DNA from: Planctomycetota bacterium
GTDB lineage: Bacteria; Planctomycetota; Planctomycetia; Planctomycetales; Planctomycetaceae
Assembly (NCBI GenBank): GCA_027618475.1
Contig: JAQCEJ010000002.1
Span: 1 to 64,000 of the forward strand
Reading direction: 5' to 3'
DNA: 64,000 nucleotides
A model generated the notes under the pieces. That model did no database searches. It saw only the letters and a program-made list of their open reading frames with translations, and had not been told where the DNA came from. Below are positions 13,794 through 52,334 of the stretch, in pieces (the stretch's first letter is position 1; each line of letters starts with the position of its first letter). The position numbers were made by a program, and so were the translations under genes.

Positions 13794-16700
13794 CTATAAC
13801 CATGTGCCGGTATTGATAAAGGCGTAATCGACTGCCAGCACGTTCGATGTGGGAGTACTCCCCGATTTGGCAGCAGCGGTGACTTTGTCGAATCCCGTCA
13901 GTTGGTCCTTCTGAAAACTTCGGCTCAATTCGAATAGTTTTCCTGATCCGAAGACCGTATCGAGCGTGGCGACGTCGACCACTTTCGCCTGATCGTTTCC
14001 GGTACTCGCCAGGACTTCAATCAATTTGAAGTCCCTGGCCTGCGTGTGATAGGTCGCGCCTTTTAGCGTGCCAGATATCTGCGTGCTGGTGTACACGTCG
14101 TCGCCGCTCGAATCGAGCATGAGAGCCGTATCGTTACCGCCAGGCAAGGCGAATGCATACGTCGATTCGAAGTACGTCGCAAGATATCGATATCCTGGTC
14201 CGCGCATCGACGTTCGATCTGGGAGAGAATTGAGACGATCATCACCCGATGAACCGTAAAGATAAGCGAGATCAATTCCGGCCAGATACGCATACGCATT
14301 CACACGATCGAATCGCGAGACCGTATGATTGTATCCGGTGCCAGTCATGTTACTCTTGTTTTCACGACCAATAAATCGGTCATTGCCGGGGGTGTCGTAC
14401 AGATTTGCCGTGTCGTAACCACCAGTATATGACAACGCCCATACATTGCCGAAGTCGTAGACCATGTGAGACACGCCCGAACCTGTCAGCGTAGCCTTGT
14501 AGACGTAAGATGTAAACGTATCGTCTCCGATGGTGTCATTCATCACGGCGGAATCGACTCCTCCTCCACCATACACTTCAACTATTGAAAAGCTCGTGGC
14601 ATCGATAAACAAATTCTCGCCGGTCCACGTCATATGTCCCGGATCGATTTGTGTCGACTCGTCGGCTATCGTGCCATGAATGATAATGCTGTCATTGTCG
14701 GCTAAACCGTCAATCAAGTACCGGCGGAAGCGGGCGAGGTCGTAGCTCGTCGTTGCCCCGTTGACTTTCACATGCACCTGACCATTGATGGAAACGTCGA
14801 TCGTGTCGGCAAGTGCCGTTCCGTTGATCGACATCGTATCGCCGTGAACGTCGATCTTGCCCTGGTTGTCGATCACCACGGCGTTGACGGCACCGCTCAA
14901 TTCGACGAAGAAATTCTCGTCGAATTCATTGAAGGTATTGCCCGCCACGTTGATGGTGATCGTCTTCGACGTTTCACCCGGATTGAACACGAGTGTACCC
15001 GATTTTGTGGTGTAATCGCTCCCCTGTACAGCCGTGCCATCGTTGGTCTGATAGTTCACGGTCACCGTCTTCCCGCTGGCTCTCGACAAGTTGACGGTCA
15101 ATTGAGCAGGGACAGTGCCAATTCCTTGAGCGGGAGGGATGACGACATCGGTAATGGTTATCGTTGGCGGGGCGTCGTCGTCGAAGATGGTGACTTCACC
15201 GAGGACGTCGCCAATGTCGGCTCCGACAACGTTAGTGACGTAGACGGCAAACGATTCGTCGTCTTCATCGTTCAAATCGCCCTTCACGGGCACGATCACC
15301 GTCTTCGATGTCTCGCCGGGATTGAAGCTCACGGTGCCGATTGTGCCGACGTAATCGACGTCGAACAGGGCCGTGCCGAATGCGGTTGCATAATCGGCGG
15401 TGATGATTTTTGCACTCGCCTTGCTGAGCGAAATCGTAAAGACGGTGTTTGTCGATCCGGTGTCGCCTTCGATGACATTCGCGGCGTCGGAGACCGAAAT
15501 GAGCGGCGAAGCGTCGTCATCGAGAATCGTACCGATCGCCAGATTGCGAATGATTACCGCGTTAAGCGATGACAGCAGCGACACGTGAAATTTCTCGTCG
15601 TATTCATCGAGAGTATCGCCCAGGATGGCGACATCGATTGTCTTCGTGGTCTCGCCGGGATTGAAGACGAGCGTGCCGCTGGTCGGCGTAAAATCGACGT
15701 TGGGAGTCGCCGTGTTGTTCGTTACGGCGTACGTGACCGTCACCGTGTCGGTGGCCGGCTGACTGAGGCTGACAATGAATGACGCCGTTTTTGTCCCGAC
15801 GTTTCCCTCGGTGATGCTCAGATCGGCGATGGAAACCGTCTGGTCGGACGGGAAACCATAACTAGGGAACAACGGGTCGGCAAAACCGACTTCGATATAA
15901 CCATTCGGCTGAAATCCGTCGGAGCCGAATCGAACGTCCTGTTGAATGCCAAACTGACGGAAATCGTTGTTCGGGAAGTTCAAACCGGGAGCGTTGTCGA
16001 TGCGGAAGAGATCGGCACGTCGGTTCGTTGCCGAGAACGGCCGGGTAAAGGCCGGTCCGGTACCGTTGCCGTTCGCCCCATTTTGTTTACCGGGATCGTT
16101 ATTCATGTATAGTGCACCGATGGCAACGACTTCGATGTGGTCGCCGGTATTGAGTGCGAAACGCAAGTCGAGTTGTGCCGAATCATCGAGCGTGACGATG
16201 TCGAACGTTCCTGCTCCCGAATTATTCACCGAAGTGTTCGGGTTGCCCGCCGAGACAAAGCTATCGGTATGAAAGTCGGAGAGCACGTTTCCGCCGAAGA
16301 CGTTCGACTGCACGTCGGCTGCGACGTACGAATTCGTTCCCACATTGATGAAGACGCCGTGGCTATCGACGCGATTTCCGTTGTCGCGAATCAGGTTGTT
16401 GGTAACGGTCAATCGTGCGACGATGTCGGTGAACATGTTCAGCCAGGGAAAATCCTCGCCGTCATACCGCTGCTGATTGAGCGCATTTCCCCGTTGCGAA
16501 CCGAAGAACTCGACATCGCGAGGATCGTACGCAGGTAAAAGATTGCTACCCGGGGCACCGCTGTTGGGGAGGCGGACTTGAAACTGCTGGTTGATACCGG
16601 AATTGGCCTCGAACTTAACGCCTTCAAGGCCGTTGTCGGTGATTGTATTATTGGTGAACAGAAAACCGACACCGCCGACTTCCGTTCCCGCATTGTTGAC

Positions 16701-18935
16701 GCGATCACCGACAAAACCGGTTAATATCGCGTCGACTCCCTGTTCTCCACTGTAGCGAAGAAGATTATCGTCGAAAACGAAGTTGGCCAGACTGTTGCCG
16801 TTCACCCGCAGCTTTACGGCATCATCACCGTTATATTGAATGCGGTTTCCGACAACGGTCAGATCGAGATTCGAACCGAGCGCACTGGCGTTACCGCCGT
16901 TAGTGCTGACGTCGATTCCGTCGCCGCCATTTCCTTCATAGGGTGTCACGCCGCCGATATTGTTGATGTCTACAGGATCGGTGCCGCCGATGATGAAACT
17001 GGCGACGGAGCGATCGCCCGTAAAGATGACGATCGCGTCGTCGGTGTTCAACATCGCGTTTGTGCCACGAATTGCCATGGTAACAACCGACGTGCCGTAT
17101 GATTCGAATGAATATCCGTCGTCACCGTTGACATTGAGTTCTGTCTTAAATGTAGCATTGACATCGTTCGGACTGTCGAAGTGAAGCAACTGTCGGCTGT
17201 TATCGTTGGCGACAGTGTGTACGCCGTCCAGACCGTTGAAGCTATAGCTGTTGTTTTCGAAGAGCGAGGTGATCAGCGGCTGCGAGACGGTCGGGTCGCC
17301 CGGATCGCCGATGGCCGAGTCCTGATTGGTCGTCAGGAATAATCCATGTCCGTCGTTACCGTCGAACTTATTCCGGCGGGCAAAGACAAGCGAAATCGAG
17401 TCGGCCCGTGTATCGAATGATGCACCGTCGCTGCCGTTGTCACGGAACAGATTGTCGAACAGATCGAATTCGAGAATTGCCGTCTTTCGATTGGTGACAA
17501 AAACGTTCAAGCCGTCAGCCGTGTTGTTGTGTATGTCGTTATGATCGAGTATGGCGAAGAGGTCGGCAGGACCAGTTCGGTTAAGCGATACGCCGTTCAA
17601 GTTGCCGAAAATATTACTGTTGGAAATGGTCAGATTCGCGATCCTTGTCGATTCGACCATTTCGACGGCGATGCCGTTGCTGATGTTCCCCGACACGGTC
17701 GCTCGGTCGACGATCACCGCCGACAGTAAGACGCGTCGAGCGATTTTCACTTTGATCCCCTCGCCGTTAAAGGCCGCATCTGAGCCGTTAACGGTATTTG
17801 TAGCCGTGACGTTGTTCATCAGGATCTGCCCGGTGACATCATCCGTCAGGTCGAATCCGACGCCGGCGTCGTGGTTAGCAAAAAACGTGTTCGATGTGTT
17901 GGAAAGTAATGTATTGCCGAATTCGACGTTGACCGTCGCGTCGCGATTGGCCCTCGTGAACCAGCCAAATCCTCCATTGGCGGAAATGGTGTTGCCGCCA
18001 AGTTGAGCCTGAAACTGCATGTACTTTGTCAGTATCGAAACGATGCCGTGGCCGGTATTTCCGGTAATCGTATTGCCGGTAATTTTACGGCCGAGTGTGA
18101 GATTGCCGAAATCGATGACTTGGTTCGAAGTAGCCGTCGGGGCGAAATTGATGCCGTTACCGACGTTGTCGATGATGTTGTTATCGTTGATCGCCCCGGT
18201 GACGTTGCTGTTATTGAGTTGCAGTCGTACACCATCCCCCGCAGTATTCGCCTGAATGTTGTTTCGTTCGATGAGCAGAGCAGCGATCGGGGTGTTGGTC
18301 AGATTGAAAACGACACCTGCACCGATATTATTTGAAATGGTCGTGTTGTCGGTGAGTTTGAATTCATCGACCGAACATCTGGTCAGCTGGAACGTCATGC
18401 CGTTTCCGATGTTGCTGGTGCTGGACGATTCGGTGATCGAGACCTGATGGATGGTGCTGTTATTCGAGGTGATCAGCACGCCGGCTCCGCCGTTGTTGTT
18501 GGTCGATACGTCAATGACGGTCAACGAGTTGATCGAAACATTATCGAAGACAAAGCTGATGCCAGGGTCGCCGTTACTGTTGAACAAGGCTGTGTCGATT
18601 GTCAGAGAGTCGATCGTCATGTTCTTGAGTGAGACGATGATTCCCGTTTCGCCGTTGCCCGACGCGGTGATGTTCGAGAGGCTGATGGTATTGAGCCCGA
18701 CAACCCCATTCAAATTGATGGCGATGCCATGCGACGTGTGATTGTTGACGGTAGCGCCGTCGATCGACACAACGCTCGAAGAAACCGAACTGTTATCGAT
18801 GTACAGACCGATATCCTTGGTCGGATCGATCACTGTCGCGCTGAGCATCGTCCGCGCTTCGAGGAATTCGACGATCGCAGCGGAGGAAAAACTATTGGCA
18901 ATCCGCAAAGCCCTACGACCTTGAGAACGAGGCAT
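13794..18935 (-). CDS. Giant exported beta-helix/Calx-beta surface protein with LEPR-XLL type start
   Basis: The 1,713-residue protein starts with a basic segment, then VEFLEARTMLSA at residues 23-34, a variant of the LEPR-XLL motif of large planctomycete exported proteins. Residues about 40-880 are right-handed beta-helix material with N-G-D-G-I and N-N-T-I style rungs. Residues 1035-1365 hold three Calx-beta domains, each with the FNPGETxKT strand. Residues 1458-1690 are five tandem units of 46-47 residues. The product is probably a calcium-binding adhesin or surface layer protein. GAGGACC lies eight bases before the ATG. No sortase-type or PEP-CTERM tail is visible at the C-terminus (FINTGTWL), so the anchoring mode is unclear. 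Confidence 0.88.
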   Translation of the reverse strand: MPRSQGRRALRIANSFSSAAIVEFLEARTMLSATVIDPTKDIGLYIDNSSVSSSVVSIDGATVNNHTSHGIAINLNGVVGLNTISLSNITASGNGETGIIVSLKNMTIDSLTIDTALFNSNGDPGISFVFDNVSINSLTVIDVSTNNNGGAGVLITSNNSTIHQVSITESSSTSNIGNGMTFQLTRCSVDEFKLTDNTTISNNIGAGVVFNLTNTPIAALLIERNNIQANTAGDGVRLQLNNSNVTGAINDNNIIDNVGNGINFAPTATSNQVIDFGNLTLGRKITGNTITGNTGHGIVSILTKYMQFQAQLGGNTISANGGFGWFTRANRDATVNVEFGNTLLSNTSNTFFANHDAGVGFDLTDDVTGQILMNNVTATNTVNGSDAAFNGEGIKVKIARRVLLSAVIVDRATVSGNISNGIAVEMVESTRIANLTISNSNIFGNLNGVSLNRTGPADLFAILDHNDIHNNTADGLNVFVTNRKTAILEFDLFDNLFRDNGSDGASFDTRADSISLVFARRNKFDGNDGHGLFLTTNQDSAIGDPGDPTVSQPLITSLFENNSYSFNGLDGVHTVANDNSRQLLHFDSPNDVNATFKTELNVNGDDGYSFESYGTSVVTMAIRGTNAMLNTDDAIVIFTGDRSVASFIIGGTDPVDINNIGGVTPYEGNGGDGIDVSTNGGNASALGSNLDLTVVGNRIQYNGDDAVKLRVNGNSLANFVFDDNLLRYSGEQGVDAILTGFVGDRVNNAGTEVGGVGFLFTNNTITDNGLEGVKFEANSGINQQFQVRLPNSGAPGSNLLPAYDPRDVEFFGSQRGNALNQQRYDGEDFPWLNMFTDIVARLTVTNNLIRDNGNRVDSHGVFINVGTNSYVAADVQSNVFGGNVLSDFHTDSFVSAGNPNTSVNNSGAGTFDIVTLDDSAQLDLRFALNTGDHIEVVAIGALYMNNDPGKQNGANGNGTGPAFTRPFSATNRRADLFRIDNAPGLNFPNNDFRQFGIQQDVRFGSDGFQPNGYIEVGFADPLFPSYGFPSDQTVSIADLSITEGNVGTKTASFIVSLSQPATDTVTVTYAVTNNTATPNVDFTPTSGTLVFNPGETTKTIDVAILGDTLDEYDEKFHVSLLSSLNAVIIRNLAIGTILDDDASPLISVSDAANVIEGDTGSTNTVFTISLSKASAKIITADYATAFGTALFDVDYVGTIGTVSFNPGETSKTVIVPVKGDLNDEDDESFAVYVTNVVGADIGDVLGEVTIFDDDAPPTITITDVVIPPAQGIGTVPAQLTVNLSRASGKTVTVNYQTNDGTAVQGSDYTTKSGTLVFNPGETSKTITINVAGNTFNEFDENFFVELSGAVNAVVIDNQGKIDVHGDTMSINGTALADTIDVSINGQVHVKVNGATTSYDLARFRRYLIDGLADNDSIIIHGTIADESTQIDPGHMTWTGENLFIDATSFSIVEVYGGGGVDSAVMNDTIGDDTFTSYVYKATLTGSGVSHMVYDFGNVWALSYTGGYDTANLYDTPGNDRFIGRENKSNMTGTGYNHTVSRFDRVNAYAYLAGIDLAYLYGSSGDDRLNSLPDRTSMRGPGYRYLATYFESTYAFALPGGNDTALMLDSSGDDVYTSTQISGTLKGATYHTQARDFKLIEVLASTGNDQAKVVDVATLDTVFGSGKLFELSRSFQKDQLTGFDKVTAAAKSGSTPTSNVLAVDYAFINTGTWL
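13866..14564 (-). repeat. Five tandem 46-47-residue repeats in the giant protein
   Basis: Residues 1458-1504, 1505-1551, 1552-1598, 1599-1644 and 1645-1690 align without gaps in the first four units. The shared pattern is G-x-D-x-A-x-L-x-D-S-x-G-D-D-x-F at the start, then a T-G-x-G-Y turn and an aromatic F-x-x-x-x-A-Y-A end. The fifth unit is degenerate. At DNA level the units are diverged. Confidence 0.85.
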
Positions 18936-19563: not shown

Positions 19564-21168
19564 TCAAACTTGCCATACACCGCTTTGAAGCGGAACGTCC
19601 TCAGCAAAGCGTGTTGACCACTCCAGGGCTCGGGTCACCAGCTCGCGAGTCTGAGCGGGCTCGATGACCGCGTCGACCCAGCCGCGGGCGGCGGCATAAC
19701 GGATATCCATTTGCTCTTCGTAATCGCCGATCGTTTTTCGTCGAAGGACTTCCATCTCGTCGGCGTCGACGACGCGGCCGGTACGTTTCAGGGCGGCGAT
19801 GTTGATGTCGAGTAGCGTTGCCGCAGCTTGCCGTGCTCCCATCACCGCATACTTCGCTGTCGGCCAGGCAAATAGAAATCGAGGATCGAACGCTTTACCA
19901 CAGAGGGCGTAATTCCCCGCGCCGAAACTTCCGCCGGTGATCACCGTGATTTTCGGGACGCGGCTGTTGGCGATCGCATTCACGAGTTTGGCCCCCGCGC
20001 GAATAATCCCCCCCTGCTCTGCCTGCTTGCCGACCATAAAACCGTAGACATCCTGTAGAAAAACAATCGGTGTCCAAGTCTGATTACAGTCGAGAATAAA
20101 TCTGGCGGCCTTGTCGGCCGATTCGGGATAGATCACACCACCGAATTGAATTCCTGCCTGGGGTGATTTTTCCTGCTGGTGCTGATTACCGACGATGCCG
20201 ACGGGAAATCCGCTCCAGCGGGCGTAACCGCAAACCAGCGTCTTGCCGTATTGTGCTTTATATTCTTGAAACGAATCCTGATCGATAAGACATTCGAGAA
20301 CATCACGTACATCATACGCCGCCTGGGGATCGGATGTGACTGTTTGATATATGGCATTGATATCACGCGCCGGAGACTTCGCCATTTCGCGCCGAAACAA
20401 AGGCGATGTTCTATTCACCGGAAATGTCTCAATGAGCGAGCGGACCCGTTTCAAACAGCTTTCGTCATCGGGTTCCAAAAAATCGATCGTACCGCTGATT
20501 TCGGCGTGCATCTGTGCCCCGCCAAGTTCCTCGTGTGAGATTTCTTGTCCTATCGAACTTTTGACAAGGGCAGGACCGGCCAGGTACAGCCCTGAACCAC
20601 TAGTCATTACCAACTTGTCGCAAAGGACCGGAAGGTAGCCTCCTCCTGCGACGCAATTTCCCATAATCGCTGCTATCTGTGGAACACCAGCTGCAGAAAT
20701 AACGGCGTTATTGCGGAAGATGCGTCCAAAGTCGTCTTCGTCGGGAAAGATTTCATCCTGAAGCGGCAGAAACACGCCTGAGGAATCGACGAGATAACAG
20801 ATCGGCAGTCGGTTCGTGAGGGCGATCTTTTGAGCTCTCAGCACCTTCTTCGCCGTCATCGGAAAGAACGCTCCCGCTTTGACGGTTGCGTCATTGGCGA
20901 TCACCATCACTTCGCGGCCGGAGATGGTGCCGATTCCGCAGACCACGCTGGCTGCCGGAGCGCCACCCCACTCTTCATACATATTCCAGGCGGCCCATTG
21001 GCCGAGTTCGAAAAACGAAGTATCGACATCGATGAGGCGTTCGATACGCTCGCGAGCGATCAGCCGTGATTTATCGTGCTGCCGCGCGATGGCCTTCGCC
21101 CCGCCCCCCTGGTTGATGACGTGTTGTTGTTCGCGAAAATGCTGGAGAATTTCATCCCATTGATTCAT
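19564..21168 (-). CDS. Acyl-CoA carboxylase, carboxyltransferase (beta) subunit
   Basis: A 534-residue carboxyltransferase of the PccB/MccB type. It transfers CO2 from carboxybiotin to an acyl-CoA in a complex with a biotin-carrying subunit, which is not encoded here. Visible landmarks are GGGAKAIARQHDKSRLIARER near residue 20, ICYLVDSSGVFLP, GNCVAGGGYLPVLCD, the second-half oxyanion region GGSFGAGNYALCGKAFDPRF, and a WPTAKYAVMGARQAA motif. The length fits methylcrotonyl-CoA carboxylase beta subunits (about 535-563). The exact acyl-CoA is undecided. A frame runs 18 codons further upstream, but MNQWDEI is the likelier start. It is divergent from the large cytochrome-like gene, with 100 bases between them. 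Confidence 0.88.
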   Translation of the reverse strand: MNQWDEILQHFREQQHVINQGGGAKAIARQHDKSRLIARERIERLIDVDTSFFELGQWAAWNMYEEWGGAPAASVVCGIGTISGREVMVIANDATVKAGAFFPMTAKKVLRAQKIALTNRLPICYLVDSSGVFLPLQDEIFPDEDDFGRIFRNNAVISAAGVPQIAAIMGNCVAGGGYLPVLCDKLVMTSGSGLYLAGPALVKSSIGQEISHEELGGAQMHAEISGTIDFLEPDDESCLKRVRSLIETFPVNRTSPLFRREMAKSPARDINAIYQTVTSDPQAAYDVRDVLECLIDQDSFQEYKAQYGKTLVCGYARWSGFPVGIVGNQHQQEKSPQAGIQFGGVIYPESADKAARFILDCNQTWTPIVFLQDVYGFMVGKQAEQGGIIRAGAKLVNAIANSRVPKITVITGGSFGAGNYALCGKAFDPRFLFAWPTAKYAVMGARQAAATLLDINIAALKRTGRVVDADEMEVLRRKTIGDYEEQMDIRYAAARGWVDAVIEPAQTRELVTRALEWSTRFAEDVPLQSGVWQV

Positions 21169-21269
21169 GTCGTCTCGCTCAACGGTTATAATCGCGGCGC
21201 ATTGACCAGATTGAGGCTTCAACGTGTGAACGACACCGAAACGATCACAGACAGAAACGGTTGATCGAA
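21169..21269. promoter_or_regulatory. Shared divergent promoter spacer
   Basis: These roughly 100 bases separate the carboxyltransferase gene (minus) from the large CXXCH protein gene (plus). Promoters for both must lie here or inside the neighbouring 5' ends. No clear operator palindrome was seen. Confidence 0.4.
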
Positions 21270-24200
21270 ATGAGAGTAACGATTCCGACGCGAAATGTCA
21301 CGGCGGGTTTCAGTTGGGCACGATGTCTCAACGGCGTCTGCTTTGGATTGACACTGACGCTGGTGATCATCGGCGGTGACACCGATACCCTAGGTCTCAC
21401 AAGCGTCTTGTATGCCCAAGCAGACGATGGCGAGATCGACGACGAAGATCAGAACGGATTGATCCTCACGCTTCGCAGGGGAGAAAAGACGATTCAACGA
21501 GTAGAAGACGTTGTTAGCGTCGACTGGCAGGATCGATCACCCGATCCGCGACTCGCAGTCGGAAATTTCTCGGCGGATTGGAACGGTCGGATCTTGATTC
21601 GTCAGGCAGGAAAATATCGGCTGCATCAGTATCTTTCGGGAACGGTCTCGGTGGCGATCGATGGAAACGAAATCGTCTTCGGACGGAGCGAGTCTCCGTC
21701 ATGGATCACCAGTAAAGAATTCGAACTCGACTTTGGCGAGCACGACATCCATATCCATTTTGAAAAGACCGCATCGACGGCTCGAATCCATCTATTCTGG
21801 TCGTCAGAGCACTTTCCGCTAGAACCTGTCTCGGCGTCACTGTTTTATCGCGATGCTTTATTGGCTGAGGCTCGGCAGATTGAACGCGGTCGCGAACAAT
21901 TCGATGTGCATCGTTGTGGTCGGTGCCACTGGGGAGAAGGAGAAACGCTTCCTCCGGCGGCTCCGTCTCTCGAATTGACAGCGAGCGGTGTCTCGGCGGA
22001 GTGGCTTCTCCGTAAATTGTTGGATCATGTGCCGAAAAAAGATGTCGGCAGTCCCTATCGAAGCAAAATGCCACATTTTCAACTGTCGGTCCGAGAAGCG
22101 CAAGGAATCGTCGTCTATCTGAATACGAAATCAAAGACGATAGATCTTCCGCCATATGCGTTCCCCGAGGAACGTTCGAAGAACTCAGCGGAAGGTCGCT
22201 TGAAGCTCTTATCGCTCGGTTGCCTGGCATGTCATCACGTTCAGGATGAATATGTTGCCGAAGGAAGATCACAGTTGTGGAATGGCGGCTCGTTGGCCTC
22301 GATCGGCCTGAAGCGAACTCCCGAATGGTTATCGCACTGGCTGCGCCGTCCACAGGATTTGAATACTGATCATCGCATGCCGACGTTTTCACTCGAAGAA
22401 ACCGAACGTCAACAACTCGTGTTGGCGTTGTCGGATCTAAGGCGACCACTACCGGCAAGTTCACTGTCGCCCGACGATTTGATAATCGACCCGTTTGATA
22501 CCGAACTGGTTGAAATCGGTGCCCGAGTCCTTCGTCAGAAAAAATGTTTCGCGTGTCATCGCATCCCCCAGTTCGACTATGCAATGAAGCAATTTGACGA
22601 ACAGCCCCTGTCACCTTTGAGTGGCGATCAGGTGAACTGGAATGATTCATGCATTGCGGATATGCCACTTGTCGAAAAACATCCGAAATACGACGGTCTC
22701 GATCGCGAGGCGATACGAGCGTTTGTCGCATCCCGGGGGGAAACAGCTGTACCACCGAGTCTTGATCTCATCGGTCAGCGGTCACTCGAACAAAATAATT
22801 GTCTGGCATGCCATCCCCGTTCGACGTCGTTGGGATTGACTCCACTCGCAGGCCGTCTGGCAAACGATATTGACGAACTGCGCGGACGGAGCAGTGAATT
22901 GATACCCCCTACTTTGACCGCAGTCGGTGACAAACTCTTCGATACGGCGCTCATTGAAGCGATTGGCGGTCAACAGCCAAAGCGACGACTCCCCTGGTTG
23001 CAGGTGCGTATGCCAAAGTATGAACATTCCTCAGAGGTGAAGATAGCGCTGGCCCATCATCTGATCGGAAGAGACCGCATTCCCGCAGAGGCGCCGGTGA
23101 GCCCCAGGCAAACGGTCGATATTCCTCAATCGCAACAGGTCGTTATCGGCCATACGCTCGTTGGCGGCCGCGGGTTCAGTTGCATTGCGTGTCACACAGC
23201 GGGAAATTTTCAACCGCGCGGAGTGGCTCTCGGTAGCCGGGGATCGGATCTGCTGATGCTACAGACTCGCATGAGGAAAGAGTATTTTCTCCGTTGGACG
23301 CGGAGTCCTTTGCGAATCGTGCAAGGGGTCGAGATGCCTTCATATCAGCAGCCAAAGCCGATGATTCTTAACGGTAATCTCGATGCACAACTCGATGCAA
23401 TCTGGTTGGCGCTTAACGACGGTAATTTTACGGTGCCGACAAATCCCGGATCTGTCGAGCAGTATCTCGTGCTTAAACCGGGGAGCACACCGCGGGTCGT
23501 ACGAGATGTGTTTACGCTCCCCCTGATGAACGATGACGAATTTGTGCCGAGGGCTTTTGCCGTCGGTCTGGCGAATGGTCACAGTCTGCTTTTTGATCTC
23601 GATCGTGGTGCGATACGACAATGGACTATCGGAGATTTCGCACGACAGCGCACGCAGGGGAAAAGCTGGTTCTGGGACATGGCAGGAATCACACTTATGA
23701 CCGGTATCGGCAAACAATCCGATATCGTGCTCGCACGATGCGACCGAGATTCTGGAGACGTCATCGATCCCGTCGCTAACGACGGGAGTATTTCTCAACT
23801 GGTTGATTACGAAATTACAGCGAATCGTGTAGAGATGAATTATCGCCTGACTTTTCTCATCGACGACAACAAGCACGATGTCGTTGTCAACGAGAGGTAT
23901 TCGGCTGAGCCGCCTTCATCTTCCGAGGGGACCGGCTGGTTGCGTTCGATACGCGTCGGGGAAGTCCCCGACGAATTCGATGTGCTCGTTCGTCGACCGG
24001 TCCCGACTCAAGCGTTTGGTGAAGCTGGAGTGACATCGGCAGCACGGTGGAACAACGTCGCGTCTGAAGAATTCGCGCGACTCGAACCGCTGCACAACAC
24101 TGCCGAGATTCTGTTGAAATATCACTGCTCGCTTCAACCGACGATGGCTGGGGACGTACCCGTCGTTTCTCGCGAACCTCCACTGGCGGAGACAGTGAGA

Positions 24201-25550
24201 ACCGTTCCCGGATTCGACGGGGTTCGCCTGCCGATCGACGCGGCGATTATGCCGACGGCAATGACGTGGACCAATGATGGAACTCTTGCATTCACATCAC
24301 TGAGAGGTGATGTTTATCTTGCCAAAGATTCCGATGGTGACGGTCTCGAAGACACGCTTACTCTATTCGAGACGGGGCTTGCCGCTCCCTTCGGTCTTAT
24401 TGCGGATGGCGATGATCTCATCATTTCTCATAAACCTGAACTGTTGCGTCTATGCGATACCGACGCTGATGGACATGCCGACGTTCGAGATGTGTTGGCA
24501 ACCGGTTGGGGATACACCGAAAATTATCACGACTGGACCTGCGGTATCGTCCGCGACTCGAACGACCGAATTTACGTCGCTTTGGGTAGTGATTACGGCC
24601 AACCGCAGCGGCCCCGCTACAAAATACGCTGGCGCGGCAAGGTGCTTCGGATTGATACCGACGGGACGATTACCCCTGTCGCCCACGATTTGCGCTTTCC
24701 CACCGGCCTGGCCATTGATTGCTACGATCGCGTGTTTATCAGCGATCAGCAAGGAGTGCAGAATACGTTTAACGAACTCAATCTGCTCGTCGACGATTCG
24801 CATTACGGTGTGCCGAGCCAATCGGAAATAGAAAAGAACGAACCGGGGATCCCGGCTGCGATTCAAATTCCTCACCCGTGGACGCGCAGTGTGAACGGCA
24901 TCGCTTTCATTCCGCAAGATAGCCCAATTGAAGAGTGGCGCGGCCAGGGTATCGGTTGCGAATACGACACCCGATTTCTGATTCGATACTCGGTTCAGCA
25001 GATCGGCAACACCGTGCAAGGAGCCGTGTATCCGATGTCACTTCCAGACGGCGACCGGGGTGGTGACAATTTCGTTGGCCCAATTGCCGTCGCCGTCAGC
25101 CCTGAAGGGGACATTTACATTGGTAGCATTCACGACAGCGGCTGGCAGGGGGGAATCAACACCGGTGCCATCGAACGGCTTACCTATACGGGAGAACTGC
25201 CTCCAGGAATTCAAGAAGTGACGGTGGTTCCTGACGGGATCGAGATTGCCTTTACCGCGCCGGTCAACATCGTCGCCGCGACGAGAACCGAAAACTACTC
25301 GATTTCGGGATATACGCGAGTCTATCAAGGGGGATACGCTACGCCCGATACGGGAAGGTTCCAACCGAAAATTGAACGTGCCGAAATAAGCGACGACTGC
25401 CGGACGGTCTGGTTGCACACCGACGAATTGAAAGAAGGCTTCGTCTACGAGATTCATTGCGGAAAACTTGGCGTCGATGGTGACGCTTCACTCTGGCCGA
25501 GCGAAGCACATTATACCCTGCACCGACTTCCAGCGATCGAAGAAAACTGA
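21270..25550 (+). CDS. PA14-like, five-CXXCH, propeller protein (exported cytochrome-like)
   Basis: An exported protein of about 1,426 residues. A signal or membrane segment lies near 25-45 (FGLTLTLVIIGG). Residues 60-190 resemble a PA14 carbohydrate-binding fold (SADWNGRILIRQAGKYRLHQ). Five heme-c motifs follow: CGRCH (about 216), CLACH (317), CFACH (426), CLACH (511) and CIACH (638). From about 960 to 1330 there is a propeller like PVC-type or PQQ-dependent sugar dehydrogenases (TNDGTLAFTSLRGDVYLAKD, DSDGDGLEDTL, DGDDLIISH). A C-terminal beta domain ends it. It probably oxidises a sugar or polyol and passes electrons along its hemes, but this is inferred. The ATG at 21270 lacks a strong ribosome binding site. 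An SDR gene follows after 17 bases. Confidence 0.8.
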   Translation: MRVTIPTRNVTAGFSWARCLNGVCFGLTLTLVIIGGDTDTLGLTSVLYAQADDGEIDDEDQNGLILTLRRGEKTIQRVEDVVSVDWQDRSPDPRLAVGNFSADWNGRILIRQAGKYRLHQYLSGTVSVAIDGNEIVFGRSESPSWITSKEFELDFGEHDIHIHFEKTASTARIHLFWSSEHFPLEPVSASLFYRDALLAEARQIERGREQFDVHRCGRCHWGEGETLPPAAPSLELTASGVSAEWLLRKLLDHVPKKDVGSPYRSKMPHFQLSVREAQGIVVYLNTKSKTIDLPPYAFPEERSKNSAEGRLKLLSLGCLACHHVQDEYVAEGRSQLWNGGSLASIGLKRTPEWLSHWLRRPQDLNTDHRMPTFSLEETERQQLVLALSDLRRPLPASSLSPDDLIIDPFDTELVEIGARVLRQKKCFACHRIPQFDYAMKQFDEQPLSPLSGDQVNWNDSCIADMPLVEKHPKYDGLDREAIRAFVASRGETAVPPSLDLIGQRSLEQNNCLACHPRSTSLGLTPLAGRLANDIDELRGRSSELIPPTLTAVGDKLFDTALIEAIGGQQPKRRLPWLQVRMPKYEHSSEVKIALAHHLIGRDRIPAEAPVSPRQTVDIPQSQQVVIGHTLVGGRGFSCIACHTAGNFQPRGVALGSRGSDLLMLQTRMRKEYFLRWTRSPLRIVQGVEMPSYQQPKPMILNGNLDAQLDAIWLALNDGNFTVPTNPGSVEQYLVLKPGSTPRVVRDVFTLPLMNDDEFVPRAFAVGLANGHSLLFDLDRGAIRQWTIGDFARQRTQGKSWFWDMAGITLMTGIGKQSDIVLARCDRDSGDVIDPVANDGSISQLVDYEITANRVEMNYRLTFLIDDNKHDVVVNERYSAEPPSSSEGTGWLRSIRVGEVPDEFDVLVRRPVPTQAFGEAGVTSAARWNNVASEEFARLEPLHNTAEILLKYHCSLQPTMAGDVPVVSREPPLAETVRTVPGFDGVRLPIDAAIMPTAMTWTNDGTLAFTSLRGDVYLAKDSDGDGLEDTLTLFETGLAAPFGLIADGDDLIISHKPELLRLCDTDADGHADVRDVLATGWGYTENYHDWTCGIVRDSNDRIYVALGSDYGQPQRPRYKIRWRGKVLRIDTDGTITPVAHDLRFPTGLAIDCYDRVFISDQQGVQNTFNELNLLVDDSHYGVPSQSEIEKNEPGIPAAIQIPHPWTRSVNGIAFIPQDSPIEEWRGQGIGCEYDTRFLIRYSVQQIGNTVQGAVYPMSLPDGDRGGDNFVGPIAVAVSPEGDIYIGSIHDSGWQGGINTGAIERLTYTGELPPGIQEVTVVPDGIEIAFTAPVNIVAATRTENYSISGYTRVYQGGYATPDTGRFQPKIERAEISDDCRTVWLHTDELKEGFVYEIHCGKLGVDGDASLWPSEAHYTLHRLPAIEEN

Positions 25551-48748: not shown

Positions 48749-51700
48749 TCACTTTCCCGCCTGCAGATTGGATTGCAAATACGCGAACAAATCCCGGCGT
48801 TCTTGCGGAGTGAGCGGTTCCAGCAACTTTTCGGGCATAATCGAAACGGCCGATTCATTTAACTCGTCGATCTGATCTTTCGGAATGCGCGTCTTGTTGT
48901 TTTTCGCATCTAGCAGCGTCACGCTCGCGGCGTCTTGCTCGGAGATCAGGCCGGTGTAGATGACTCCTTCGGTCGTCAAGACGACATAACTCATGTACTG
49001 GCTGCGAACAACGGCACTTGGATCGACGATATTCGCGAGCAATTCGGGTAAGTTGCCGCGTGTTGTGGTTGTGAGATCGGGGCCGATGGTGTTCCCTTCG
49101 CCGAAGAGTTTGTGACAGGTGCCGCAATGCTTCTTGAAGAGTTCCTTTCCCGTTGCCACGTGGCCACTCGCGGCTCGCAGGTCGTTATTGAATCGCCGCA
49201 TCGTGGCCAGTTTTTCTTCCGGGGTACCGGGCTGTATGTTCCCCCAGATTTTGCGAACGAGTTCGTTCAGCTCTTCGTTTTCGTGCAGTGCCAACCGACG
49301 TAACTGATCGATTGGCACGCTCTCAGGGGGAACCATTTTCTGCTCCACAAGCGTTACAAATGCAAGGCTCGAAGCCGGTTTGCTGAAAAGCACATCCCTC
49401 ACGCGACTTTGCACTTCGGGCGTTAAGATCGGATACAATTCCAGTAATTTCTCGCCGATCGCTTCGTTGCCGAAACGACCGAGCACGCCGATCGCGGCAA
49501 GCAACACATCGGTCGGTTGCTCTACGTCGATACGCTTCAAAACAACGTCGATGCAATCGTCGTGGCCGAGTTCTCGCAAGATATCGAGTGCGTTGAGTAA
49601 TGTTGCCTGGTCGCTCGCGACATCTTCAACCATCGAAAGTAGTTGCGCATACGCTCCGTCAATCCCGGCACGCACGGCAAGTTTGAGCCGCAACGTCTGA
49701 TTCGGTTTTTGTTGCCAGATGTCGAAGACGATCATTTTCAGGTCTGGCGAGAGAGGCGCAAATGCTCTCGTCGTCGACGGATCGGACGAGTTCTCCGCCG
49801 TAAATTCGAAGAGGCCCCCCTGCCCGACTCCGACCAATCCGACTGAACGTTCCGAAAGCCCTTGCTCCAGTGCCACAACCATCGATTCCCTTTGATTTTC
49901 CGGAGTTGTGTTCCACAGCGCAACGCAGGCGTCGTAGCCTTCGGCCGAACCATCGGCGGCGTAGCGACGCATCAATCGCCGTAGGTTGCCGCGATACGAA
50001 CCGTTGTTCCACGCCTCGGGAGTCGAAAACGTCGTGAGCACCAAATCTCGATCTGTCAATGACTTCGATTCCATCGCCCACCACAACATCCAGGGAATAC
50101 GTTCGTCGTTATCATCAATGTCGCGATCAAGAATCGCTTTAACGATCGGCAGCCCCTGCTCCGCCGATAACCGCTTGGCCGAAGCCGCAAGTTGACACCG
50201 CACCACGGGACTCGCTTCAATATGCGCCAGCTCATAAAGTCTCTCGGCCATAGGCTTTGAAATCAACTTTGCATCGCCGAGAAATCGAACTGTCCACATG
50301 CGGATGTATTCTTCCGGATGATTCAATAGCTCAAGCGCGATCGTCTCATCGAAGCCGCCGTTGACGTAGAGCGACCACAAACCCTGCAGCGCCAATCGCG
50401 AATCGTCGGTCTGTAGTGCCAGCTTTCTAAGCTGCGGATTCACCGCAAGATCCTGCAATGCTGCGAGTTGTACCCGCGCCCGGCTGCTGAACCATCCATT
50501 GGGATGCGACAACAACTCCACACATTCTGTCGAGGTCTTCGTGCGGATGTCGAACTCCTTCAAAGGTTTGGTGTTAACCGCTTCGATCTTGTAAACCCGG
50601 CCGTTGGTCTTATCCCAGTTCGCATCGGGGTCGGGATGAGCGGTTCGCTGATCGTGAAAATCGCAAAGATACATAGACCCGTCAGGACTTAGGCACACAT
50701 CGGTTGCCCCGAACCAGGTATCGTTTGACTGCAAAATCGTACCGCCGTATTTGACGGTGACCGTCGCAGACTTGGGAAAGATGTTCCAGTACGAGGCCGT
50801 ATGCCCGAGAAAATCGCCCGACATAAACGTATCGCGATACTCTTCCGGAAACGAATCTCCCAGGTAAATAGTACCTCCCGTTGGCGGACCGACCGGCGCT
50901 TTATCCCGTTCGACCGTATCGAACCATCCGTAAGCAAAGAGGTTATGCAGCGGTCCATGCTTACCGAAATTCTTAGCGTAATACGCCCCTTGCAAACCAT
51001 GCACGAACGGATTCGCATTCGTCGAATAGAACAGATTTCCCCAGGCATCGAACGTCAGTCCCCAGACGTTGCCCCCCCCTTCGCAGAAGAGCTCAAACTC
51101 TTTCCTAATCGGATGATATCGCCAGCATCCTTGCTGAAACTCGATGCCGCGCACCAGCCCCGTCGTCGTGCTGCCGTTCACGCCGTAAAGCCAGCCGTCC
51201 GGACCCCAAGTCAGGTGATTGGCAAGCGACTGCGCGTCTTCCATGCCGAACCCTTCGAGCAACACTTCGGGGTCGCTGTCGGGGACATCGTCGCGGTCGC
51301 GATCAGGGTAGAACAACAAATAAGGCACCTGTAATACATAAACGCCGCCGTGACCGAACTCGATCGATGTCGCGAGGTTTAGGCCATCGATGAAATCCTT
51401 GTGACTCTGCGCTTTTCCTTCGGCATCGAAGTCCGACAGGATCGTAATCTTATCGGCCCCGCGCGGTCCGTGCGGCGGAGGTTCGGGGATGCGATCGTAA
51501 ACCGTGCGCGACCAACGGTCGACCTTTACGCGCGTAAGACCAGCCGGGTTCGGATATTGCAAATACTGAATCACCCACAACCGCCCGCGGTCGTCGCATT
51601 TCACCGTATTCGGCTGCAAAATGACTGGCTCCGACGCCACGAGCCGCACGCGTAAACCCTGGGGGGTCTCCATCTTCTGCACGGCGACGTCGGGAGCATA

Positions 51701-51802
51701 ACCCTGCGAAAACGCGAAACGCTCGACCACCAAAATCGTCAGCAGAGCGTAACCAACAGCCATAAGGTGAGGCATCATTCTTAACACTATTGGTGAATTC
51801 AT
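48749..51802 (-). CDS. PVC-type heme-binding propeller protein (membrane-bound dehydrogenase-like)
   Basis: A 1,017-residue exported protein. A signal lies at 1-33 (LMAVGYALLTILVVERFAFS). Residues 40-430 are a propeller of the PVC-type dehydrogenase family (CDDRGRLWVIQYLQYPNPAG, GPDGWLYGVNGSTTTGLVRG). The middle (440-860) is HEAT-like alpha-helical repeat material. A C-terminal cytochrome c with CGTCH (about 891-895), GPDLTTTTRGN and the SIMPEKLLEPL Met region closes it. It may oxidise a sugar or alcohol in the periplasm. AAGGAAGATT precedes the ATG. It resembles the other large CXXCH protein of this window in mixing a propeller with a heme c, but with one heme motif rather than five. Confidence 0.85.
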   Translation of the reverse strand: MNSPIVLRMMPHLMAVGYALLTILVVERFAFSQGYAPDVAVQKMETPQGLRVRLVASEPVILQPNTVKCDDRGRLWVIQYLQYPNPAGLTRVKVDRWSRTVYDRIPEPPPHGPRGADKITILSDFDAEGKAQSHKDFIDGLNLATSIEFGHGGVYVLQVPYLLFYPDRDRDDVPDSDPEVLLEGFGMEDAQSLANHLTWGPDGWLYGVNGSTTTGLVRGIEFQQGCWRYHPIRKEFELFCEGGGNVWGLTFDAWGNLFYSTNANPFVHGLQGAYYAKNFGKHGPLHNLFAYGWFDTVERDKAPVGPPTGGTIYLGDSFPEEYRDTFMSGDFLGHTASYWNIFPKSATVTVKYGGTILQSNDTWFGATDVCLSPDGSMYLCDFHDQRTAHPDPDANWDKTNGRVYKIEAVNTKPLKEFDIRTKTSTECVELLSHPNGWFSSRARVQLAALQDLAVNPQLRKLALQTDDSRLALQGLWSLYVNGGFDETIALELLNHPEEYIRMWTVRFLGDAKLISKPMAERLYELAHIEASPVVRCQLAASAKRLSAEQGLPIVKAILDRDIDDNDERIPWMLWWAMESKSLTDRDLVLTTFSTPEAWNNGSYRGNLRRLMRRYAADGSAEGYDACVALWNTTPENQRESMVVALEQGLSERSVGLVGVGQGGLFEFTAENSSDPSTTRAFAPLSPDLKMIVFDIWQQKPNQTLRLKLAVRAGIDGAYAQLLSMVEDVASDQATLLNALDILRELGHDDCIDVVLKRIDVEQPTDVLLAAIGVLGRFGNEAIGEKLLELYPILTPEVQSRVRDVLFSKPASSLAFVTLVEQKMVPPESVPIDQLRRLALHENEELNELVRKIWGNIQPGTPEEKLATMRRFNNDLRAASGHVATGKELFKKHCGTCHKLFGEGNTIGPDLTTTTRGNLPELLANIVDPSAVVRSQYMSYVVLTTEGVIYTGLISEQDAASVTLLDAKNNKTRIPKDQIDELNESAVSIMPEKLLEPLTPQERRDLFAYLQSNLQAGK

Positions 51803-52334
51803 AATCTTCCTTCGATGGAAAGCTGTCCTATGCACGTTTTCGAAGCCCTCGCGATTTCGCGGTTAAAATCAAAATGTTGCCGCCCCAGCAACTCTGCAGC
51901 CGACAACATTTCAACTCCCAATCTATCAAGACCTTGTGGTGAACTGCCTGGCGATAATCGTTGGTATTCTGCAAAACATTTTACAAAATTTCGGGAAAAT
52001 GGCGAACAAAACGTAAGCCAGATGCGTCTTAGTGCGTATTAAGGAGTGTATCGATTTCAGAGCGATGATTCGACGAACCGGGCCTTGCCGCCAAAACGAC
52101 GGCATCCGTTCAATTCGAGAAGAGTTCCGAAGTCGATCTTGACGAAACAACCACTAACTTGTGATCATCTCTCGCGGTGATCGAAAAGTGTGGAGCAAAA
52201 GCTCAGAAACGATTACCGTTCTCTAGACGATTCACGAAAGATTTTTTCTCGTTACCTGTTCCGTCTTGTCCTGCTTTATTTTCGCGTTGGACACGGAACT
52301 CCAGCTCTGCGGGGACCACCGCAGGAGGTGCAAG
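51803..52334. other. Gene-free stretch upstream of a small ORF
   Basis: No convincing gene. It holds the promoter for the PVC-type gene on the minus strand, and its right end bears a strong ribosome binding site (AGGAGGT) for the 52335 ORF. Confidence 0.5.

Follow-up and report, generated by a model that had tools for sequence, protein, structure and literature searches.

The 64,000-nucleotide stretch analysed here, referred to as the window, is taken from the genome of a Planctomycetota bacterium (assembly GCA_027618475.1, contig JAQCEJ010000002.1, positions 1 to 64,000 of the forward strand) and encodes a fused protein of 1429 amino acids in which a PA14 domain, five heme c-binding (CXXCH) motifs and a six-bladed propeller are joined in one chain. 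This protein is most likely an oxidoreductase, and it has a split-gene counterpart. The explanation that we favour, at about an even chance, is a planctomycete enzyme that is exported and works as an oxidoreductase in one chain. Its electron flow, its substrate and its cofactor are inferred, as follows. The propeller would oxidise a sugar or other polyol in the pocket around H1090 and R1145, the electrons would pass along the five c-type hemes to a periplasmic acceptor, and the PA14 domain would anchor the chain to a partner or polymer. Pyrroloquinoline quinone (PQQ), if it is the cofactor, would have to be scavenged.

From the N- to the C-terminus the protein comprises a signal-like stretch, PA14, the five CXXCH motifs, a beta-rich domain, the propeller and a C-terminal beta domain (Table 1). 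An earlier interpretation of the bare letters, the sequence-only reading, placed the start at an in-frame ATG (position 21270), three codons downstream of the TTG. Its domain order of PA14, five CXXCH motifs and propeller is borne out, and the beta-rich domain after heme 5 and the C-terminal beta domain are additions to it. The PA14 match in Pfam covers aa 74-139 (26.4 bits vs a cut-off of 24), and the propeller matches DUF7133 (PF23500) at aa 1014-1287 with 77.1 bits vs a gathering cut-off of 27. The score for TIGR02604 ('PVC-type heme-binding CxxCH protein', named after the Planctomycetes-Verrucomicrobia-Chlamydiae group) is 70.4 bits, under the curated cut-off of 122.2. Five CXXCH motifs in one chain far exceed chance, as the protein, shuffled 5,000 times, had 0.0076 on average and never more than one. 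Judging from its N-terminus the protein is probably exported, and the five motifs are predicted to carry attached heme; the genome of the window has two matches to the cytochrome c assembly family PF01578. The beginning of the middle domain (aa 745-812, window 23493-23696) is a very conserved segment, DFArQRtqGKSWFWD, for which the Pfam scan gave no family match.

Table 1. Positions of the fused gene, its parts, the downstream gene and the separate cytochrome/propeller gene pairs (window coordinates, unless a locus is named)
Feature	Position	Strand	Remarks
Fused protein open reading frame (ORF)	21261..25550	+	1429 aa; TTG start; matched in 111/150 sampled family genomes at E 1e-60
Signal-like N-terminus, aa 1-54	21261..21422	+	Judged by eye; most ortholog matches start downstream of aa 1-54
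PA14 domain, aa 64-201	21450..21863	+	Pfam PF07691; VIA-align Z 20.1 to 6qdi, 16.2 to 6xa5
Heme 1 CXXCH, aa 219-223	21915..21929	+	29/29 rows; Met270 (22068-22070) likely distal ligand
Heme 2 CXXCH, aa 321-325	22221..22235	+	29/29 rows; Met373 (22377-22379)
Heme 3 CXXCH, aa 429-433	22545..22559	+	29/29 rows; no conserved Met
Invariant Cys464, heme 3 domain	22650..22652	+	29/29 fused rows; 9/9 separate five-heme proteins
Heme 4 CXXCH, aa 514-518	22800..22814	+	29/29 rows; Met584 (23010-23012)
Heme 5 CXXCH, aa 641-645	23181..23195	+	29/29 rows; Met692 (23334-23336)
Middle domain (beta-rich), aa about 745-979, preceding the propeller	23493..24197	+	Predicted structure; no fold assignment
Six-bladed propeller, aa about 980-1311	24198..25193	+	Model, fold matches, alignments; H1090 at 24528-24530, R1145 at 24693-24695
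C-terminal beta domain, aa about 1312-1429	25194..25547	+	Predicted structure; no fold assignment
Short-chain dehydrogenase/reductase (SDR) ORF, 230 aa	25568..26260	+	Starts 17 bp after the stop codon of the fused gene; Pfam PF00106
L057	own genome, contig C194		Cytochrome/propeller pair, 21 bp gap
L061			Cytochrome/propeller pair, 25 bp gap
L062			Cytochrome/propeller pair, 20 bp overlap
L067			Cytochrome/propeller pair, 4 bp overlap
L068			Cytochrome/propeller pair, about 1.1 kb gap holding an ORF on the opposite strand

Conservation was assessed over 40 ortholog loci (L009-L048). L010 and L021, which are copies of L038 and L040, were omitted from the alignment, as were ten incomplete orthologs (L024, L026, L028, L032, L034, L035, L037, L043, L044 and L048), each of which has the number of CXXCH motifs expected for the stretch covered. 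The resulting alignment of 29 rows consists of the window protein and 28 full or nearly full orthologs, two of them (L016 and L036) cut by a contig end. All five motifs are present in every row. The sequence-only reading had named conservation of these motifs in advance as its own test, and it came through, since all 28 orthologs keep five CXXCH.

The propeller was modelled with AlphaFold2 at a mean predicted local distance difference test score (pLDDT) of 81.3 and a predicted template modelling score (pTM) of 0.84. PQQ-type sugar dehydrogenases fill the first 13 rows of the Foldseek search and the first 16 rows of the VIA-align search (Z 26.6-28.9, 281-309 residues); the VIA-align list is filled by model residues 241-572, and the middle and C-terminal domains are hardly covered. 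The predicted structure thus belongs by fold with sGDH, Asd and AA12, the six-bladed sugar dehydrogenases, in agreement with the dehydrogenase-type propeller proposed earlier. In a profile-profile alignment (E 1.2e-12) to five sugar dehydrogenases of solved structure, R1145 coincides with the RN-motif Arg. In the pyranose dehydrogenase of Coprinopsis cinerea (CcPDH), His363, Arg430 and Asn431 are described as AA12 residues of the PQQ site (PMC6881789). H1090 was compared with the catalytic His (sGDH His144, CcPDH His363) and R1145 with CcPDH Arg430. The sGDH counterparts of Arg430 and Asn431 are residues 228 and 229. H1090, R1145, Q1164 and G1165 are each kept in all 29 fused rows; with separate propellers added (14 rows), the latter three are kept throughout and H1090 in 13 rows, Tyr taking its place in L060, a sequence cut by a contig end. 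H1090 is likely equivalent to the catalytic His, and R1145 to a PQQ-binding Arg, as judged from these alignments.

The same parts also occur as separate genes. Twelve further stretches around partial matches were fetched, and each gene was taken to start where its longest ORF does. Five of these stretches have, as neighbours in the same direction, genes for a five-CXXCH cytochrome of 827-1027 aa and for a propeller protein of 491-692 aa (Table 1), and a further one, L060, holds a fused gene with a single CXXCH remaining before the propeller. Since the two proteins are adjacent in some genomes and form one chain in others, they most likely work together, which supports the earlier idea of cytochrome and propeller coupled in one molecule. 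The fused protein likely unites two partners that are encoded separately in its own genome and in some relatives. In the propeller tree the eight rows labelled as split lie on one side of a branch (100/99), although L060, labelled split, is really a fused protein; the one outgroup is attached by a very long branch, and fusion and fission are not distinguishable. Our search of openly licensed PubMed Central (PMC) papers found no published description of such five-heme/propeller gene pairs. In the own-genome pair (L057 3857-9479, contig C194) the cytochrome and propeller genes are followed by a Gfo/Idh/MocA oxidoreductase gene, and such a gene also adjoins the L067 pair and the L041 gene. Gfo/Idh/MocA genes are abundant in planctomycetes, and this adjacency is for that reason a mere lead.

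Several observations weigh against an oxidising propeller wired to the hemes. Designed and NHL propellers come close in VIA-align Z (25.6 and lower, over shorter stretches), and the Pfam GSDH score of the propeller is 13.6 bits, under the cut-off of 25. In the profile-profile alignment H1090 misses the catalytic His by one residue, next to a gap of two residues, and the Asn expected next to R1145 is replaced in all 29 rows, by Tyr (21) or Phe (8). A five-heme gene stands without an adjoining propeller gene in four of the 12 stretches (L059, L063, L064 and L065), and a propeller gene without a five-heme gene in two (L058 and L066). The PQQ biosynthesis family pqqC (TIGR02111) gave no match in the own genome, with none in the control genomes either, and no match over cut-off in 149 genomes of the phylum. 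Weaker matches in five of the latter, among them two adjoining pqqC pieces of about 110 bits each in genome G153, indicate that the search was able to detect the gene; with one family searched, the non-detection is weak proof that the PQQ route is absent. The radical SAM family PF04055 was set aside as a marker of this route, being too general to inform. Import of external PQQ by bacteria is stated for E. coli (PMC6881789). PQQ is thus unproven as the propeller cofactor, because the Asn beside R1145 is always Tyr or Phe and pqqC was not found. As R1145, Q1164, G1165 and H1090 are kept but the Asn is replaced, the pocket is strongly constrained without being a PQQ site of the standard kind. The dehydrogenase residues, which the sequence-only reading had also put forward as a test, gave a divided answer: the His and Arg of the PQQ-type site are retained, but the neighbouring Asn is not, and the genome yielded no pqqC.

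These points bear on two other explanations of the propeller. It could be a non-catalytic interaction domain of an electron-transfer or structural cell-surface protein in which the hemes serve as a wire; the incomplete PQQ signature, the missing pqqC match and the proximity in Z of non-catalytic NHL propellers would fit such a role, but few residues are as well conserved as H1090, R1145, Q1164 and G1165, and we regard it as improbable. The propeller could also be a glycoside hydrolase or lyase, with the hemes performing a separate electron-transfer task. Hydrolysis stays a rival because a purified protein that combines a TIGR02604 domain with HEAT repeats and a single cytochrome domain is reported to be a beta-galactosidase, hydrolysing lactose with a Km of 1.8 mM (PMC5342196); the 3-keto-disaccharide hydrolase family, too, is matched 25 times in the own genome. 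However, the lactose-hydrolysing protein differs in architecture, the window protein falls under the TIGR02604 cut-off, and its best propeller fold matches are sugar dehydrogenases; we give this explanation little credence.

The sugar-oxidising propeller, our preferred explanation, would feed a cytochrome part with one peculiar heme. Downstream of hemes 1, 2, 4 and 5 a Met (Met270, Met373, Met584 and Met692, respectively) is present in all 29 rows, whereas in the heme 3 domain Met, His, Lys, Tyr and Arg each stay below 60% of rows at every position. This domain holds instead Cys464, the sole invariant Cys of the fused protein outside the CXXCH motifs (the next best Cys column reaches 24/29). 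The separate five-heme proteins that keep it share about 25-29% of their residues with the window protein where the two match. In a 15-row alignment of five-heme proteins the Met of heme 2 is present in every row except L059, which has Arg. From these alignments it is natural to guess at a thiolate ligand, or at a redox-active Cys close to heme 3, and heme 3 with Cys464 would be a special site; that Cys464 itself ligates the heme is conceivable, though we lean slightly against it. The model of the five-heme part, built without heme, is of middling quality (mean pLDDT 72.6, about 63 in the block around Cys464), and many of its fold matches are to PA14 alone.

It may be asked whether the five-heme part is itself the enzyme, with heme 3 and Cys464 catalytic or redox-tuned through a thiolate ligand or Cys chemistry and the propeller acting as a docking or substrate-binding scaffold. 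The invariance of Cys464 in fused and separate proteins alike, the fact that no Met, His or Lys of the heme 3 domain is conserved and the four five-heme genes with no propeller gene in the stretch fetched would agree with this, as would the catalysis by Cys-ligated hemes described for TsdA (PMC4423706). The comparison with SoxA and TsdA, which also have a Cys where a Met ligand is expected, is an analogy only. Their family is absent among the matches listed for 28 heme 3 domain members, the presence of such a model in the libraries not having been checked, and Cys464 lies 23-31 residues from the heme His, vs 39-67 for the Met ligand candidates (29 rows). Membership of heme 3 in SoxA/TsdA is not supported by the matches listed. 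The heme 3 alignment (A3) comprised 28 of the 29 rows, L039 being omitted; the family matches listed are ordinary class I cytochromes, and the heme 3 profile matches, among others, cytochrome subunits of sugar and alcohol dehydrogenases, which favours the sugar-oxidising explanation. An NCBIfam SoxX match (38.7 bits, under the cut-off of 61) falls on the heme 2 domain, at aa 321-379. Together with the strong conservation of the propeller pocket, the missing family match and the different spacing make a catalytic five-heme part unlikely. A broader proposal is that of a new enzyme class with five hemes, in which the conserved Cys would ligate or serve heme 3, the other four hemes having Met. The enzyme would act alone, in a two-gene complex with a propeller of sugar-dehydrogenase fold, or as one chain with that propeller; in this last form it would be a glycan oxidase with a cofactor site that differs from those of known PQQ enzymes. 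We offer this as tentative, and it is rather doubtful.

The PA14 fold of aa 64-201 is clear in the predicted model. Sugar-binding PA14 domains (lectins) use an Asp-Asp calcium pair in the binding loop. This pair is absent from the PA14 loop in all 29 rows, and the sugar binding ascribed to the domain by the sequence-only reading is not upheld beyond the agreement in fold. In the separate cytochrome of the own genome PA14 is found at residues 317-393, between heme 2 and heme 3 (CXXCH at 178 and 447), indicating that its position shifts within the family.

In the openly licensed PMC papers searched, we recognised nothing with the fused PA14/five-heme/propeller architecture, and nothing of use emerged on the 3-keto glycan pathway. 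The closest working analogue is CcPDH, a single secreted chain with a cytochrome b, a PQQ propeller and a binding module (CBM1), for which electron transfer from PQQ to heme is reported (PMC4332668); by analogy, such a plan can work in one chain. The AA12 domain of CcPDH is among the top fold matches of the window propeller (6jt5, Z 28.1). CcPDH differs in being fungal and in having one heme b (AA8) and CBM1 in place of five heme c motifs and PA14, and its PQQ site is full, whereas the window protein lacks the Asn beside the Arg. The sGDH and Asd proteins (Pfam GSDH) share the propeller fold, the Arg and probably the catalytic His with the window protein, which differs in falling under the GSDH cut-off, in the changed Asn position and in the fusion to hemes. 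From the PVC-type CxxCH proteins (TIGR02604/DUF7133) it differs in having five hemes before the propeller rather than one behind it, in giving no HEAT match and in its score under the TIGR02604 cut-off, although it exceeds that of DUF7133. The window itself encodes a second DUF7133 protein (48749-51835, minus strand) of the ordinary PVC layout, with propeller, HEAT, Cytochrom_C and one C-terminal CXXCH. The separate pairs, such as L057, have in common with the fused protein the five CXXCH motifs, the Met pattern, Cys464 and a related propeller, and differ in their two chains, their low identity and, in L057, the location of PA14. Planctomycete-type cytochromes with carbohydrate-binding domains, PA14 being counted among them, are noted in Verrucomicrobia with function unassigned (PMC5615132), and the Thermogutta xanthan paper treats DUF1080 proteins, not the fused five-heme protein (PMC5673643).

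The sequence-only reading had coupled the SDR gene to the fused gene. The ORF does follow closely (Table 1), but the partnership is probably not conserved: no SDR lies directly downstream of the ortholog in any of the 40 loci (ORFs of at least 90 aa, several loci ending soon after the gene), and relatives in three of them are 1.3-1.4 kb downstream with an intervening ORF. The SDR was therefore rejected as a conserved partner. On the other side, 38 bp away, lies a divergent acyl-CoA carboxyltransferase gene (19564-21222, minus strand), relatives of which (65-73% identity) adjoin the ortholog in three of the 40 loci (L042, L009 and L032). A 1713 aa protein with Calx-beta domains is encoded further off (13794-18935, minus strand). 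The own genome (G000) has, spread over many contigs, 54 PSCyt1 matches in addition to the 25 to the 3-keto-disaccharide hydrolase family PF06439, a sizeable stock of heme proteins and perhaps of oxidative glycan enzymes.

The fused protein is conserved and widespread in its bacterial family. Beyond the family sample given in Table 1, it is matched in 90 of the 119 sampled family genomes that are at least 90% complete and at most 5% contaminated, and in 30 of 392 genomes of a phylum-wide sample (20 of the same family, eight elsewhere in the class and two elsewhere in the phylum); family and phylum counts include the own genome and matches covering only part of the query. Among the 59 genomes searched as relatives, a number that includes the own genome, 41 matched at E 1e-30 or better, some of them partially. 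Scanning named contigs yielded 11 loci, every one in metagenome-assembled genomes of Planctomycetota.

Planctomycetes and their kin are described as having many large heme proteins of unassigned function and a suspected role in carbohydrate use (PMC5615132). Five hemes coupled to a propeller of the sugar-dehydrogenase type, whether in a single chain or as a gene pair, offer a concrete, expressible test case for oxidative glycan use. The parts most worth bench work are the unusual propeller pocket and the Cys464 site of heme 3, which the pattern of Met, Met, Cys, Met, Met makes readily testable by site-directed change. With matches in about three quarters of the sampled family genomes, the task of the fused protein probably belongs to the core physiology of this group.

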